From contig CANQAT010000006.1 of the NCBI GenBank assembly GCA_947588925.1, positions 1 through 35,103 on the forward strand: a stretch of DNA of 35,103 nt. Reading direction: 5' to 3'. Each line of letters opens with the position of its first letter. The first letter of the stretch is position 1. This DNA comes from an uncultured Bacilli bacterium. Its GTDB lineage: Bacteria; Bacillota_I; Bacilli_A; RF39; UBA660. The position numbers were made by a program, and so were the translations under genes. The notes beneath the pieces are model-generated. The model saw only the letters and a program-made list of their open reading frames with translations, did not search any database and was not told the origin of the DNA. Shown in pieces: positions 3,113 to 35,103 of the stretch.

Positions 3113-3874
3113 CTATCCTTTTTGGTTGCCATCAAGTTGTTCAATTTTGTCTTTTATTCTGTAAGAATTACCTGTTATATTTATTACATGAGAATGATGT
3201 AATAATCTATCTAATATGGCATTGGCAAGTGTATTATCGCTAAAGACTTCTCCCCATTTGCTAAATACCATATTTGTTGTTATTATTGTTGAATGCTTTT
3301 CATATCTTTTAGCTATCAGTTGAAATAGTAAATTTGCTCCTTGTTTATCAACTGGTAAATATCCTATCTCATCTATGATTAATAACTGATATCTACAAAA
3401 ATGTTTTATTCTTGCCTCTAGTTTATTTTCAAAATGTGCCTTATTTAATTGGGTTATTAAATCATGACATGATATGAAATATACTGAATATCTTTTCTTT
3501 GCTGCTGTTATTCCTATTGATATAGCCAAGTGAGTTTTTCCAACTCCACTTGATCCTACAAATAATATATTTTCATGTTTCTCTAAAAATCTTAATGTAT
3601 TTAAATCTTCTATTTCATCTTTATTTATTGATGGTTGATAATCAAAATCAAATTCCGATAGTTCTTTTTCATATGGAAATGCTGATACTGTTACTTGTAT
3701 TTTTGATGCCCTTTCATCTCGATATTCTATTTCTTTATTTGTAAGCTCTAATAGAGCTGTTTGAAATGGTATTTTCTTTTTTACTATTTCATCTATATAA
3801 TTTGGTAAATAACTTCTAAATTTTTCTAGTTTTAATAATTCTAAATTGTTTAATAATTTACTATATTCATTCAT
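3113..3874 (-). CDS. istB: IS21-family transposition helper ATPase IstB
   Basis: 'NILFVGSSGVGKTHLAISIGITAAKKRYSVYFISCHDLI...LLIIDEIGYLPVDKQGANLLFQLIAKRYEKHSTIITTN' is classic IstB/DnaC-like. Confidence 0.97.
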   Translation of the reverse strand: MNEYSKLLNNLELLKLEKFRSYLPNYIDEIVKKKIPFQTALLELTNKEIEYRDERASKIQVTVSAFPYEKELSEFDFDYQPSINKDEIEDLNTLRFLEKHENILFVGSSGVGKTHLAISIGITAAKKRYSVYFISCHDLITQLNKAHFENKLEARIKHFCRYQLLIIDEIGYLPVDKQGANLLFQLIAKRYEKHSTIITTNMVFSKWGEVFSDNTLANAILDRLLHHSHVINITGNSYRIKDKIEQLDGNQKG

Positions 3875-4000
3875 CTATATTCACTCCTAATATTTTATCT
3901 TTCTTTTTTAATTCTATTATCTCTTGTATTTCTTCTTCTGTTTTATTTTTATATGCTTCACTTTTCATTATTTGTTTTAAATCACTTTCTCGATAATTTA

Positions 4001-5796
4001 GTTACTATTCACAGCCGAGTAGTTTAAAACACCACAAAATAGACTAAAATTTAGTCTTTTTTCATGTCTTCAATTGTATAAGGAGTATCAGATAATAATT
4101 TCTCTATTGCGGTATGTGAATTGTATCCATTTCTTTTGCATGTTTCTATATAAGATTTTATTCTTGCATAATATTCTGCATTACTTATATTGGCAAATTG
4201 CCCAGATACTTTCATTTTTGTTTTACTACTTCTTAAACTCCTTTCACTTAAATTGTTTGAAAACGGAACATCAAACCTTAATACCCACAGTAAATAATTT
4301 TCTTTGTACTCTATTAATCTTTTTATTAAATTCTTTTCATCATTACCATGATATTTGTTAAAATCTTTTTTATTTATTTCCTCTGCCTCTTTTATAATCT
4401 CATCATATTCTTTTATTACTTTGTCACTTACTTCTTGGTCAAAATACATTATACTTTGTTTTATATATTCTTTTCTCTTTTGGTTTGTTGTCGTTAATAG
4501 AGTCATTAGTTTTTCTATCCAGTCCCTCTTAAGATTTTCATTTAGCTCTTTTAAATCTCTCATTAAATGTACACAACATTCTGCATTTGTATATTCATAA
4601 TCATCATTATAATTTACTTTATTATGATCATGTACTACTACTGTATCTTTTGATAATGTTTTTAAAATGTTATCTTTATCTAATCCATCCTTGTCCTTTT
4701 TTTCATGAGCTTTATAATAAGCTAATTTTTCTGTTCCATAAAATCTTAAACAAGATTGTTTTCCATTTATTGTTATTACTGTATCATCCCAATTTATTAC
4801 TTTTTGTTTTAATATTTCTTTATGTAGTTCATTATCAAATTTATCTAATTTTTCGTAACATCTTTTTTGTAATTTTGATATATATCCTTCACTCATATTC
4901 ATTTCTCCACCTGTAAATCCACTTATTAATTCTTTGGTACGATGGAATGATACACATCCTTCATTTAGTAATGATATAGCTAAGGCTTGGGCTTTTGTTC
5001 CGTATTGATTTTCTTCTTTTAAATTATCTGGTATTGGTATACTTATTTTTTTATGACAATGATTACATATATATTCTCCAAATTCATGTTTTATTTTCAT
5101 CAATCTTATTTGTATATCAAATTCATCTTTTCTTCTTGTAGAAGTTAAAACTAATTCACCTCCACAAGAACATTTATTATTTTCTAAAGAATGTATATAT
5201 GTATCTGTTATTTCTTCATCCTTAAATTTTTCTAATTTTGTTTTTTTATGACCTAATTGTCCTCCTTTAAGTTTATCTGATTTTTCTCTTGAATTTGGTA
5301 TTCTTTTTTCTTTTCCTATAGGTGTTTTACTTGTAGGAATACCTGAATTATTACTATCATGATTTAATATTTGTTTTAAATGTTCATTCTCTTTTTTTAA
5401 CATTTCGTTTTCTTTTATTAATTCATATGAAAATTTTTCTATTGCTTTTGTAATTTTTTCTTCCATAGTTTTTTCCATATATTTAATTTGTTTTTGTAAA
5501 TTTTTATTTTTTTCTTTTTGAGCATTTAATAAATCTCTTAATTTAGTATTTTCTTTTTGTAATTTATCTACTTGATTTTGTAATTTACTTAAGCTTGTTT
5601 CTATCGCCATAACTACACCTTTTTCTACTATAATTATTATATCAAAATTTTGATATAATTTCAACCTAAAGTGTGTGATTTGGCCTTATTTTTCAAAGGA
5701 TTTCATAAGAAAAGTTATCCACACTTTTTTGTAGATAACTTGTTATTTTTTTTGTATATTTCTATTTATTTATTTAAATCGGCTGTGAATAGTAAC
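4001..5796 (-). mobile_element. IS66-family element, tnpC-only (ISBst12-like organisation), 1796 bp, with 8-bp target duplication
   Basis: 18-bp perfect terminal inverted repeats GTTACTATTCACAGCCGA (4001-4018) / TCGGCTGTGAATAGTAAC (5779-5796); 8-bp direct repeat ATAATTTA at 3993-4000 and 5797-5804. Confidence 0.97.
4051..5664 (-). CDS. tnpC: IS66-family transposase; real start likely 5610 (MAIETSLSKLQNQ...)
   Basis: N-terminal coiled coil, 'NSGIPTSKTPIGKEKR', zinc-binding CSCGGE...CNHCHK, 'DVPFSNNLSERSLRSSKTKMKVSGQF' as in IS66 TnpC. Confidence 0.96.
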   Translation of the reverse strand: MKLYQNFDIIIIVEKGVVMAIETSLSKLQNQVDKLQKENTKLRDLLNAQKEKNKNLQKQIKYMEKTMEEKITKAIEKFSYELIKENEMLKKENEHLKQILNHDSNNSGIPTSKTPIGKEKRIPNSREKSDKLKGGQLGHKKTKLEKFKDEEITDTYIHSLENNKCSCGGELVLTSTRRKDEFDIQIRLMKIKHEFGEYICNHCHKKISIPIPDNLKEENQYGTKAQALAISLLNEGCVSFHRTKELISGFTGGEMNMSEGYISKLQKRCYEKLDKFDNELHKEILKQKVINWDDTVITINGKQSCLRFYGTEKLAYYKAHEKKDKDGLDKDNILKTLSKDTVVVHDHNKVNYNDDYEYTNAECCVHLMRDLKELNENLKRDWIEKLMTLLTTTNQKRKEYIKQSIMYFDQEVSDKVIKEYDEIIKEAEEINKKDFNKYHGNDEKNLIKRLIEYKENYLLWVLRFDVPFSNNLSERSLRSSKTKMKVSGQFANISNAEYYARIKSYIETCKRNGYNSHTAIEKLLSDTPYTIEDMKKD

Positions 5797-6912
5797 ATAA
5801 TTTAAATACTTATCGCTTATTTCATATTGGCAAATAAAATCTGTAATGTTATAATATATATTGATTCTGGAATCACTCTCTGATATGGTTACTTGTTTTC
5901 CTATCAGATATGTTGGAACTGAGTATTTTTTACCTTTATACGTTATCATGGATTCTTTTGATACTTTATATGTTTTTTCAGGCTCATAATAGTTTATCAA
6001 TCTATCCCATAACGGTAATGAGTTTAAATACTCTTTTTCTTTTTCATGAACTTCACTTGGAATTATCCCAACTCCTTGTACAACTTCATTATTAATATCT
6101 TCCATTATTTCTTTTACTATTTTATCTAATTCTTCCCAAGTCTCAAATTCTTCATTATATGGTCTTAATCTTTCCATTATTCTAGCTAAAGTTTCTACTT
6201 TTCCTTTTGTTTCAGGCCGATATCCTATACAAGCAAGTGGGGTAAATCCTGCATCATTACTAAATTCTTTGAATCTTTTATTAAATACAACTTCTGTCGT
6301 TATTGTCCTTGCTTTATCAACTACTGTTTTCATATTATCAAATAATATTTCTCTAGGGCATCCATTAAAATATCCAAAACCATTAACCAAACATTTAAAT
6401 AAAGTATTTTGATTCCTATCATTTGTTAATTCAATATATTTATATCTTGAATAACCAAGTATCATAAGAAATATGTTGATCTCAAATATTTCTCCATTTT
6501 TATTAACTAATTTCATTGATTCCTTCCAATCTACTTGAGCTTGTAATCCAGGGATTGTTTCAAATCTAATTGTAGCTTTTTTTATTTGTAAATTTTTATG
6601 CTTTTTTATATAATTTTTTACTATTCCATATCCTCCTGTATAACCTTGTTTTTTTATAAACTTATAAACATTCATAGCTTTACTTTTATACTTATCTACT
6701 TTTGTATCAATTATTTCTTTATATGGATCTAATTTACTTGCTCTTTCAACCATTTTTCTTGCTTTTGGATTTTTTAATCTTTTTTCTCGATTATAAATAG
6801 TTTGTCTTGAACATTGCAGAGTTCTTGCCAGCTCACTTTTATTAATATTATCACCTCCAATTCTTATTATTTCATTTCTTACATCTTTTCTCATTAATAT
6901 CAACTCCTTCAC
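5770..6912 (-). pseudogene. istA: IS21-family transposase IstA, 3' end displaced by the IS66-type insertion
   Basis: HTH N-terminus plus 'PGLQAQVDWKESMKL...EILFDNMKTVV' integrase core; the last codons (VTIHSRFK) are IS66-type terminal sequence; the true 3' end continues at 4000-3870. Confidence 0.95.
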
Positions 6913-9879: not shown

Positions 9880-10985
9880 TTACAAATACCATAACTTCTC
9901 ATTGTTTTTTCTTACTTCTTTTATAATCCCACTACCAAGACATACATCACCATAATAAAATACACAAGCTTGTCCTGGAGTTACTCTTTTAACTCCCTGT
10001 TTATATTTAACCAATATTTCATTATTATCCAAATACTCTAATTCTACTGGATTGTCTTTTTGTCTATATCTAAATTTAGCCATGCATTTACTTGGTTTTA
10101 CATCAGAAAGCCAATTTATAGTATCTACTATACAAGAATTAGTTACTAAATAATCATTATCTTCACCTATACATATATATAATATATTTTTTGAAAGATT
10201 TTTACCTACCACAAACATTCTGTCAGGAAATCCTCCAATATCAAGCCCTCTTCTTTGTCCTATAGTATAGTTCATAAGCCCTATATGTTTACCTATTACT
10301 TCATTTGTATCTATATTTACTATATCGCCAGGTTGATTCGGTAAATAGTTCTTTAGAAAATTAGTAAAATTTCTCTCTCCTATAAAACATATACCTGTAG
10401 AATCTTTTTTATTTGCTGTAATAAGACCATATTCAAGTGCGATTTTACGTACCTCTTGTTTTTTTATATTACCTAATGGAAATAAAACATTTTTGAATTG
10501 CTCCCTATTTACTTGGGAAAGAAAATATGATTGATCTTTATTTTCATCAATTGCTTTTAATAAATTGCCATTTTCTAATCTTGCATAATGTCCGGTTGCA
10601 ATATAATCTGCACCTAGTTTTTTGCCTCTTTCACGAACATATCAAACTTTATATATTTATTACACATTATATCAGGATTTGGAGTTCTGCCTTTTTTAAG
10701 TTCATCTAAGAAGTATGTAAATACATAATCCCAATACTCTTTTATAAAATCTTTTCTATGTAAAGGAATACCTAACTTATCACATACTGCTTTAGCATCA
10801 TTATAATCAATTTCTTGTGGACATATTCCTTGTTCTGTAGTTGGTGCATCTATTAACTCTCCATCAGCATAAGAATCCCAATTTCTCATAAATAATCCAA
10901 TTACTTCATAGCCCATTTTCTGAAGCATTATAGCAGCAACACTACTATCTACTCCTCCACTCATTCCTATTACAACTTTTTTCAT
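9880..10985 (-). pseudogene. mnmA: tRNA-specific 2-thiouridylase MnmA, frameshifted second copy
   Basis: Near-identical to 13791-14897 but 1 bp shorter: T6 instead of T7 at about 10618-10623 splits the frame. Confidence 0.93.
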
Positions 10986-13790: not shown

Positions 13791-14897
13791 TTACAAATAC
13801 CATAACTTCTCGTTATTTTTTCTTACTTCTTTTATAATCCCACTACCAAGACATACATCGCCATCATAAAATACACAAGCTTGTCCTGGAGTTACTCTTT
13901 TAACTCCCTGTTTATATTTAACTAATATCTCATTATTATCCAAATATTCTAATTCAACTGGATTGTCTTTTTGCCTATATCTAAATTTAGCCATGCATTT
14001 ACTTGGCTTTACATCAGAAAGCCAATTTATAGTATCTACTATACAAGAATCAGTTACTAAATAATCATTATCTTCGCCGATACATATATATAATATATTT
14101 TTTGAAAGATTTTTACCTACTACAAACATTCTATCAGGAAATCCACCAATATCAAGTCCTCTTCTTTGTCCTATAGTATAGTTCATAAGTCCTATATGTT
14201 TACCTATTACTTCATTCGTATCTATATTTACTATATCCCCAGGTTGGTTTGGTAAATAATTCTTTAAAAAATTGGTAAAATTTCTCTCTCCTATAAAACA
14301 TATACCTGTAGAATCTTTTTTATTTACTGTAATAAGACCATATTCAAGTGCAATTTTACGTACCTCTTGTTTTTTTATATTACCTAATGGAAATAATACA
14401 TTTTTGAATTGCTCCCTATTTACTTGAGAAAGAAAATATGATTGGTCTTTATTTTCATCAATTGCTTTTAATAAATTGCCATTTTCTAATCTTGCATAAT
14501 GTCCCGTTGCGATATAATCTGCACCTAGTTTTTTTGCCTCTTTCACAAACATATCAAACTTTATATATTTATTACACATTATATCAGGATTTGGAGTTCT
14601 GCCTTTTTTAAGTTCATCTAAGAAGTATGTAAATACATAATCCCAATACTCTTTTATAAAATCTTTTCTATGTAAAGGAATACCTAACTTATCACATACT
14701 GCTTTAGCATCATTATAATCAATTTCTTGTGGACATATTCCTTGTTCTGTAGTTGGTGCATCTATTAACTCTCCATCAGCATAAGAATCCCAATTTCTCA
14801 TAAATAATCCAATTACTTCATAGCCCATTTTCTGAAGCATTATAGCAGCAACACTACTATCTACTCCTCCACTCATTCCTATTACAACTTTTTTCAT
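13791..14897 (-). CDS. mnmA: tRNA-specific 2-thiouridylase MnmA (intact copy)
   Basis: [12 protein letters not shown]-loop, 'GICFIGERNFTNFLKNYL', 'YTIGQRRGL', 'VFYDGDVCLGSGII'. Confidence 0.98.
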   Translation of the reverse strand: MKKVVIGMSGGVDSSVAAIMLQKMGYEVIGLFMRNWDSYADGELIDAPTTEQGICPQEIDYNDAKAVCDKLGIPLHRKDFIKEYWDYVFTYFLDELKKGRTPNPDIMCNKYIKFDMFVKEAKKLGADYIATGHYARLENGNLLKAIDENKDQSYFLSQVNREQFKNVLFPLGNIKKQEVRKIALEYGLITVNKKDSTGICFIGERNFTNFLKNYLPNQPGDIVNIDTNEVIGKHIGLMNYTIGQRRGLDIGGFPDRMFVVGKNLSKNILYICIGEDNDYLVTDSCIVDTINWLSDVKPSKCMAKFRYRQKDNPVELEYLDNNEILVKYKQGVKRVTPGQACVFYDGDVCLGSGIIKEVRKNNEKLWYL

Positions 14898-30911: not shown

Positions 30912-32279
<1,368 letters not shown>

Positions 32280-32726: not shown

Positions 32727-33041
32727 ATGAAAGTTATAAAAGATAATAAAACTATTGATTTAATTTATTGTAATAATTTTTTTAATAGATTTAAAGGATT
32801 AATGTTTAAAAGAAATTTTAATTATTGTATGTGTTTTCCAAAATGTAATTCTATTCATACATTTTTTATGTTAAGTAAAATTGATGTTGTTATGACTGAT
32901 AAGGATTATAATATATTATATATTTATAAAAATCTTAAACCTTATAGAGTTATATTACCTAAAAAACATGTATATTATACATTTGAATTCCCAATAGATA
33001 AATTTAAATTTAATAAAGGAGAAAAAATAAAAATTTTTTAA
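32727..33041 (+). CDS. DUF192 protein
   Basis: 'NRFKGLMFKRNFNYCMCFPKCNSIHTFFMLSKIDVVMTDKDYNIL'. Confidence 0.88.
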   Translation: MKVIKDNKTIDLIYCNNFFNRFKGLMFKRNFNYCMCFPKCNSIHTFFMLSKIDVVMTDKDYNILYIYKNLKPYRVILPKKHVYYTFEFPIDKFKFNKGEKIKIF

Positions 33042-33171
33042 TTTAATATATTTAAAAACTGATAAATCAAAATTCATTTATCAGTTTTTATTTTAGTATT
33101 TACTTGTATAACTTTTATTAATTTTTACTAAATTTATAATCAAATTATTATATTTAAACGAAAACCTATGA

Positions 33172-33345
33172 AACTACAAAAACGAGGCGAAAACCGTGGT
33201 TAGTGCCACTATTGCCATCGGATTTTAGGAAGTTGAACACATCCGCACCGGACGTATTGTTGTAGTTGCCTCCACGAAAGAGCCAAGGGTACGACGAACT
33301 AACGAAAAAACTATTACAGACTAATTTCCACATATATCTAAATTA
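33172..33345 (-). pseudogene. Orphan C-terminal fragment of an FGE/C-type-lectin-like (DGR target-like) protein
   Basis: Minus translation WKLVCNSFFVSSSYPWLFRGGNYNNTSGADVFNFLKSDGNSGTNHGFRLVFVVS* aligns without gaps over 41 residues to the C-terminus of 33676-35103. Confidence 0.85.
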
Positions 33346-33520
33346 GATATACCATTATTTAATCTCAAAATTAATTAAGATAATTCTTGTCTCAGTTTTA
33401 AATTAATAATACAAACATAACGCAAATAAACACTGCCTTAGTTTAATAATATTATTTAAATCAAAAAACTTACTGCTTATAAATCATTGTATTAAAAACT
33501 AACTGAAACAAGGAAAATGC

Positions 33521-33603
33521 TTATCCTAAGCGAGGTAGGCAGCCAAAATAAATTTCGGGCGCCTACCATATCCAGCTAACAAAAAAGCGTGTGGGCAGGA
33601 TAA
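33521..33603. other. Candidate structured RNA/DNA element
   Basis: TTATCCT/AGGATAA outer stem and GGTAGGC(A)GCC/GGC GCCTACC inner stem; locally GC-rich in an AT-rich intergenic region. Confidence 0.5.
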
Positions 33604-33675
33604 TACATTCTTTCCAATTTATGAGTAATTTTTATTTATAGTTTATATTATACTACTTGCATTTAGAGTGAGCTG

Positions 33676-35103
33676 CTACGCAGCTGCGAAAACTACGCGG
33701 AAGCCAATGTAGGGGAGGGCATTGCCACTGTTGTAGTAGAAGTGAAACATACCTGAACCAGACCCAACGCCAAAGTAGCCTCCACGTAAGAACCAAGGGT
33801 ACACCAAATATGGATAATTCTGATTATCACTGTACCATCCTCTTGTTTCGCTAAGGGCTTCTCCATAACAGTTTCCTCCATTACATGCTGTTTCTGAGAA
33901 TGCACCATTTGATGAAGTTTTATCTTTGGTTTGATATTCTTTATAATATTTTAAATTTGATGGAGTATTTTTCCATATTGTTGTAAATCCTGCAAGATTG
34001 TTCCAGGTATCATTGTAGTATCTTGAACCCCATTCTTTTCCTTCTTCTTCTGCTCCTATATCTACATAGCCCATGACATGTTCAAAAGCTCCTCCACTCA
34101 TATCATATACTCCTGTGATGTTTCCTGTTGTTGATGCCCCTTCTCCACATAAGTTTATTTTTTCTTTTGTTGATGTACTTATATTATCATATGTACATGT
34201 TCCTTCTTTTGAATAACCAGAAGTGGATGGCTTTCCACTACTTCGTCCTGTATACCTTGCATTCCAAACATTATCACTTGGATATTCTCCTGAATCATTT
34301 TTATATATTTCTTTGTTTGCTCCCTCATAATTTGGATTTCCATATTTGCCATATTTACTTTGTGATAAATATGCTACTGCTCCCCATTCACTATTCTTTG
34401 CCATATGACTATCAAAATATGTGTTTGATAATTTTTGGGCTGTATCAAACATTGTCTTCACATTTATATTCACTAATGATTGTTGATTTGGTAATATTGT
34501 TGGATTTTCTCCTGTTCCTGTTGTTTCAAATTTTCCTACCCATATTCCACTTAACTCTTCATCCCCAAATATAAATGCCGGATGTAATATGTAATTTTCA
34601 TCTGCTTCTTCTTTATCTATTGGAATAAATTGTATATCGATTGCTCCTGGAAGCGTTTTACTTTCTCCACACATTCCATAATCGTCATCTATTTTATATT
34701 CATATCTTGGTATCCATACAAACATCCCTATTATATCAGAATCACCTTCTGAATCATCTGGTATAACTAATGTATCTCCTACATTTTTATTTATTCCTTC
34801 TTTTAGTATTACTGCATTCGCCCATTCTTGGTGTCTATAGTTATACCATTCTGAATCATTACTTGTTGTTATTATCCAGTTATTTCCATCATACTTTACT
34901 GGTATTAAATTCCCTATCTCTGGTTTATTTGGTTCACTTGTTTTATATGTTATTCTACATATTTCTTCTACTTCTTCACTTAATACTAGATTCTTATTTC
35001 TTAATTCTAATTCATATTCTCCTATATTCATTTCATATACATCTGTTATTTTTCCTTCTTCTAGTACTATTGTTCCTTTACTTGGTTTTTGTCCACTTGC
35101 TTC
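33676..35103 (-). CDS. FGE-sulfatase/C-type-lectin-fold protein with DGR-like variable C-terminus; 5' end beyond window
   Basis: 'YDMSGGAFEHVMGYVD...YPWFLRGGYFGVGSGSGMFHFYYNSGNALPYIGFRVVFAAA'; frame stays open upstream of 35031 to the window edge (EASGQKPSKGTIVLEEGKITDVYEMNIGEYEL...). Confidence 0.85.
   Translation of the reverse strand, partial: EASGQKPSKGTIVLEEGKITDVYEMNIGEYELELRNKNLVLSEEVEEICRITYKTSEPNKPEIGNLIPVKYDGNNWIITTSNDSEWYNYRHQEWANAVILKEGINKNVGDTLVIPDDSEGDSDIIGMFVWIPRYEYKIDDDYGMCGESKTLPGAIDIQFIPIDKEEADENYILHPAFIFGDEELSGIWVGKFETTGTGENPTILPNQQSLVNINVKTMFDTAQKLSNTYFDSHMAKNSEWGAVAYLSQSKYGKYGNPNYEGANKEIYKNDSGEYPSDNVWNARYTGRSSGKPSTSGYSKEGTCTYDNISTSTKEKINLCGEGASTTGNITGVYDMSGGAFEHVMGYVDIGAEEEGKEWGSRYYNDTWNNLAGFTTIWKNTPSNLKYYKEYQTKDKTSSNGAFSETACNGGNCYGEALSETRGWYSDNQNYPYLVYPWFLRGGYFGVGSGSGMFHFYYNSGNALPYIGFRVVFAAA

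Follow-up and report, generated by a model that had tools for sequence, protein, structure and literature searches.

A probable decayed template repeat of a DGR downstream of an FGE/C-lectin-type target gene in an uncultured Bacilli bacterium

The window, the whole stretch of 35,103 nt that was analysed, is the entire contig C6 of an uncultured Bacilli genome (G000), which is AT-rich, 1.28 Mb in size, divided into 80 contigs and 95.6% complete. The genomes compared with it are assemblies only, and all results rest on assembled contigs. At one end of the window, a target gene of DGR type is followed by a second, gene-less copy of its C-terminus, termed the orphan. The features, in the order in which they are read on the minus strand, are:

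33676..35103, minus strand: FGE/C-lectin-type, DGR-type target gene, truncated at its 5' side where the contig ends, assigned from family membership and the PDB match 5vf4
33676..33816, minus strand: VR (variable region) in the target gene, with 52% GC in surroundings of ~30%, adenine-biased relative to the template repeats (TRs) of relatives
33671..33685, minus strand: perfect 6-bp hairpin AGCTGC-GTA-GCAGCT over the stop codon, -9.4 kcal/mol for the stretch
33364..33670, minus strand: spacer between VR and TR; its sequence contains a strong hairpin (GGTAGGC..GCCTACC, 33534-33567)
33314..33363, minus strand: leader of TR type; it matches that of the TR located immediately upstream of a DGR reverse transcriptase (RT) gene on G123:C75
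33166..33310, minus strand: the orphan, by sequence comparisons probably a decayed TR core with a TR-like 5' half (CGTGGAGGCAACTACAACAATACGTCC) and a diverged 3' half
33041..33118, minus strand: 3' flank with a terminator, common to the sister genome G014, where it lies directly after the target gene

Next come a DUF192 gene and a glycyl-tRNA synthetase (GlyRS) gene, and no RT lies in the window. The GlyRS gene (30912-32279) has a second counterpart in G000 (C11:17171-18535) with 67% identity, and one of the two could stem from acquisition or from contamination during binning. Elsewhere in the window, an mnmA-like gene occurs twice in nearly identical form (9880-10985 and 13791-14897), with one copy broken and the other intact. 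The segment at 3113-6912 contains three transposase-like genes, judged by eye, of which the outer two encode an ATPase resembling IstB and an integrase resembling IstA.

The intact target has about 12 FGE genes as relatives in G000, at least one of which possesses a prepilin-type N-terminus. A search of the window protein against the PDB revealed a sequence match to 5vf4 (E=4.2e-4), which, judging by the title of PMC6328139, we take to be the DGR variable protein of Thermus aquaticus. The protein reached no Pfam family, and members of the FGE family exist elsewhere in G000; we class it as FGE/C-lectin-type, with a putative C-lectin fold. Several C-termini of the family form GC-rich islands (52-59% against ~30% around), in which framework codons are common and the differing codons fall at fixed places, and a TR/VR repeat pair is present with the VR at the target C-terminus. 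According to PMC3240598, a target hairpin follows DGR variable regions; the hairpin over the stop codon occupies this place and, by analogy, might play the same role. The spacer beyond it has no Rfam match.

The orphan comprises the last 41 codons of an FGE/C-lectin C-terminus on the minus strand (33291-33166), from a Tyr codon at 33291-33289 and a Trp codon starting at 33285 to the stop TAG at 33168-33166. Its translation (YPWLFRGGNYNNTSGADVFNFLKSDGNSGTNHGFRLVFVVS) and the end of the intact gene (YPWFLRGGYFGVGSGSGMFHFYYNSGNALPYIGFRVVFAAA), each closed by a stop codon, are both 41 residues long and align without gaps, just as an earlier note on this DNA had described. That note also rightly placed the copy downstream, but its coordinates were off by ~6-11 nt, and the orphan lies 385 bp from the intact stop codon (33676-33678). 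The pattern of AAC/AAT in the orphan against TAC, GGC, GTT and CAC in the intact gene was correct, as was the statement that no full gene lies upstream, where the longest open frame is 58 aa and the flank contains stops. Well beyond chance, the orphan matches the FGE family within G000 (tblastn E=1.2e-4) and, at the DNA level, a TR of a same-genus genome (E=1.9e-14, 80% over 81 bp), and the AGVF conserved among the copies reads ADVF here. Exact runs that the orphan has in common with the remaining window or with the other target loci of G000 in the comparison reach 14 nt at most, so that a chimera formed via shared k-mers is not evident.

DGRs (diversity-generating retroelements) are systems that deliberately mutate the tip of a surface protein. 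The same-genus genome G008 carries a complete one on a single contig (C36), consisting of a pilin-type FGE target, a TR, a MutS-like gene (MutS domain I, PF01624, E=6.7e-11), an Avd-like reading frame assigned by eye and without a family match, and a canonical DGR RT with the motifs GNYTSQ and YMDD. The best solved relative of this BPP-1-type RT is chain 8ub7 (E=3.6e-46), a Bordetella DGR RT. The TR is a non-coding repeat ~250 bp beyond the target stop codon that reads NPWFIRGGNYNNTSNAGVFNFNNNGNSNNNNSFRVVL, and 25/36 of its adenines differ from the VR of the same locus, compared to 13/90 other bases. RTs of this type were found in 44 of the 293 genomes of the bacterial family searched; within the genus, DGRs of the G008 type occur in G008 and G011. 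The best 80 RTs from viral contigs are at most 44% identical. In a working system of this kind, an asparagine-codon TR, located downstream of the target VR at a distance of a few hundred bp, would be transcribed and copied by an adenine-error-prone RT, and the mutated cDNA would then replace the VR. PMC12875486 describes a DGR rebuilt in laboratory E. coli.

The orphan sits where the complete DGR of G008 has its TR, in the same order of target, spacer and TR and with similar spacing; the earlier note, too, had expected a template repeat at this place. The orphan and the G008 TR are identical over a run of 27 nt. After RGG the orphan carries Asn at positions 1, 3 and 4 (N-Y-N-N codons), an arrangement found in 12 of 19 copies in a TR context and in none of 23 VRs in a gene context (p=4.6e-6; tallied by hand). 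Its 5' flank aligned to the TR leader of G123:C75 with a score of 39, which was reached by 0/1000 shuffles, and the match to this TR around the leader extends over 105 nt at 73% identity (E=8e-10). By contrast, the same flank matched none of thirteen coding flanks (p >0.1 for all). The strong leader match is to this one TR only, and a leader profile built for the whole family, which was weak, failed to find the orphan.

Moreover, the differences between the orphan and the VRs are directional. With the orphan as template, 65% of its adenine sites are changed, giving odds of 6.6 (p=5e-5) against the VR of C25 and 4.5 (p=9e-4) against that of C6, whereas with C25 and C6 as templates the odds are 1.3 and 2.2 and not significant. 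The 5' half of the orphan keeps the TR adenines, and the 3' half is altered at most Asn codons. In its non-adenine bases the orphan differs by 22% from C25 and by 29% from C6, compared to 0-22% in same-locus control TR-VR pairs; an average near 2.6% of bases is given for TR-VR pairs with any non-adenine change (PMC6642488).

These differences agree with the earlier view that the neighbouring VR was not copied directly from the orphan. The foreign G008 TR fits the local VRs as well or better, with non-adenine differences of 30% against C6 and 20% against C25, and against C3 and C30 it fits much better than the orphan (16% versus 31-32%). In addition, in nine TR loci picked by eye (L079, L091, L092, L093, L097, L115, L117, L120 and L131), the TR leader pairs with the 3' flank in an 11-bp helix (11/11 pairs, three of them with compensatory changes on both sides), which may be conserved and close the DGR RNA. 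The 3' partner of this helix is absent from the orphan at the expected 167-203 nt. The helix was visible only on direct comparison of the elements; TRs and VRs could not be told apart by RNA duplex energies compared with those of shuffles. Taken together, the non-adenine differences, the fit of the foreign TR and the missing helix partner indicate that the orphan is not a working template. As it fits the local VRs no better than a foreign TR, we favour an ancient template, an option that the earlier note had listed beside a truncated paralogue end and a second variable region, and that the leader, the N-Y-N-N codons, the 27-nt identity and the position all support. The promoter scan gave no more hits than in shuffles, and the 3' flank of the orphan matches neither TR nor VR flanks convincingly.

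Further DGR remains are found elsewhere in G000. A search with the G008 MutS-like protein detected an accessory operon on C47 (L252, 9288-10393): the contig opens within the 3' flank of a TR, which hardly differs from its G008 counterpart, and after it lie a MutS-like gene, an Avd-like gene and the remnant of an RT. This remnant of 87 codons corresponds to the G008 RT minus 258 codons, removed in frame together with SQ and YMDD, and its junction (AGTAAAAATAA) is an 11-nt direct repeat that in G008 flanks the lost section on either side. Lacking the catalytic core, the remnant escaped the Pfam RVT_1 search. The TR of C47 is absent from the assembly. An intact cognate RT of the FGE type was not found in the G000 assembly either, where RVT_1 matched only a group II intron on C11 and the RT on C66 (L007). 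The latter adjoins the end of a DUF6273-type TR and forms, with that of G010:C14 (L089), a separate DGR lineage with the motif GVEIAQ replacing GxxxSQ and DUF6273 pilin-type targets; from TR to VR of G010:C14, 21/45 adenines but 5/80 other bases are changed. The C66 RT was rejected as the cognate enzyme of the orphan, its own unrelated TR fitting DUF6273 pilin targets. On C30 (L053, 1913-2480), a copy in TR position after another target has an intact TR leader and a VR-like core. The TR implied by the VR class of C3, C8 and C30 was not found in the G000 assembly; DGR activity in G000 may therefore have been recent, and, given the fragmented assembly, an intact RT or TR may likewise be unassembled. 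Outside G000, loci L117 (G181:C58) and L116 (G278:C4) contain several additional VR-like, gene-less copies close to DGR RTs.

Three alternatives would give the orphan a different nature. The earlier suggestion of a truncated paralogue, in which a deletion spared only the 3' end of a second target gene as the orphan, is strongly disfavoured: the target family is multicopy, and in G014 the gene's own end adjoins the terminator that follows the orphan, but the upstream flank is a TR leader rather than the coding GWYGDYA segment, and the N-Y-N-N codons occur in no gene-context VR. It is very unlikely that the orphan is transcribed and used in trans by an RT elsewhere, despite its adenine bias in the template direction and the DGR-type RT on C66, since that RT has its own TR, which fits DUF6273 pilins, the FGE-type RT lacks its core, and the non-adenine mismatch is far above the published average. 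It is equally improbable that the orphan serves gene conversion as a silent donor cassette, in the manner of pilS/pilE-type antigenic variation. A partial copy near a pilin-family gene and the similar extra copies near other RTs (L116, L117) would fit such a cassette; however, no G000 target compared matches the orphan over more than 14 nt, and thus no recent conversion used it.

It is somewhat less improbable, though still unlikely, that the orphan is a TR-VR mosaic, in which the 3' part of a TR was overwritten by a VR through homologous recombination of the repeats or homing into the template. The contrast between its two halves would fit such an event, as would the copy on C30, which joins a TR leader to a fully VR-like core, and that on G013:C68, which joins a TR-like 5' half to a VR-like 3' half. 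Nevertheless, many changes in the 3' half of the orphan are at non-adenines and fit drift equally well, its 3' flank lends neither source convincing support, and the copy on G013:C68 is situated at the end of its contig and could be a chimera made during assembly. If true, the overwriting would destroy the template. The broader proposal that templates of this family were repeatedly destroyed or copied by TR-VR recombination or homing, leaving the orphan, C30 and G013:C68 as mosaics, is doubtful to a slightly greater degree; if true, recurrent mosaics would scatter dead templates beside target genes.

Comparison with the sister genome G014, whose GlyRS is 98% identical, showed that there the same terminator follows the target gene directly, with neither spacer nor orphan in between; the segment was either gained by G000 or lost by G014. 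According to the earlier note, a mere deletion remnant would be recognised by a full-length paralogue in a sister genome and a lineage without DGRs. G014 has one gene and no orphan, and the lineage is not devoid of DGRs, because they exist in two other genomes of the genus and remains persist on C47.

Altogether, we propose, with a probability of roughly 0.78, that the orphan is a decayed and detached TR, a relic of a known kind of DGR rather than a new system. The locus appears to have kept the target 3' end, the spacer, the TR leader and the TR core, and would have lost the flank 3' of the TR together with the genes for the MutS-like protein, the Avd-like protein and the RT, none of which is present there; the surviving operon of the same type on C47 has the coreless RT. 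The homology, the position, the leader, the directional bias at adenines, the missing partners and the RT deletion are observed, and they suggest that the orphan once functioned as a template, decayed after detachment and now does nothing. Counting against a fossil TR, the 3' half is not asparagine-rich and is readable as VR-like, the leader is strongly matched by a single TR, an intact RT or TR may be hidden by the fragmented assembly, and the VR class of C3, C8 and C30 hints at recent DGR activity. The orphan could derive either from a full second DGR locus or from recombination between TR and VR copies.

Similar to the Thermus aquaticus variable protein DGR of the Bordetella BPP-1 archetype, the orphan locus combines an FGE/CLec-type target carrying a C-terminal VR with an Asn-codon TR downstream and adenine-directional mismatches, and the genus has an RT of the BPP-1 type. 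It differs in that the targets are pilin-type surface proteins and in that it has no RT or accessory genes, a diverged TR and no closing helix. The DGR of G008 is closer in its arrangement; unlike the orphan locus, it keeps the TR 3' flank and all three partner genes, and its TR is asparagine-rich throughout. The lineage of C66 and G010:C14 also diversifies pilin-type proteins in the genus, but differs in RT lineage, TR and target domain.

No account of degenerate or orphan templates or of broken DGR RTs was found in the open-access collection searched, and the death of DGRs and its leftovers seem little described. A TR-like copy without an RT is no evidence of ongoing diversification. G000 presents together variable targets still in place, a template that has probably decayed after detachment, and an accessory operon whose RT has lost its core.
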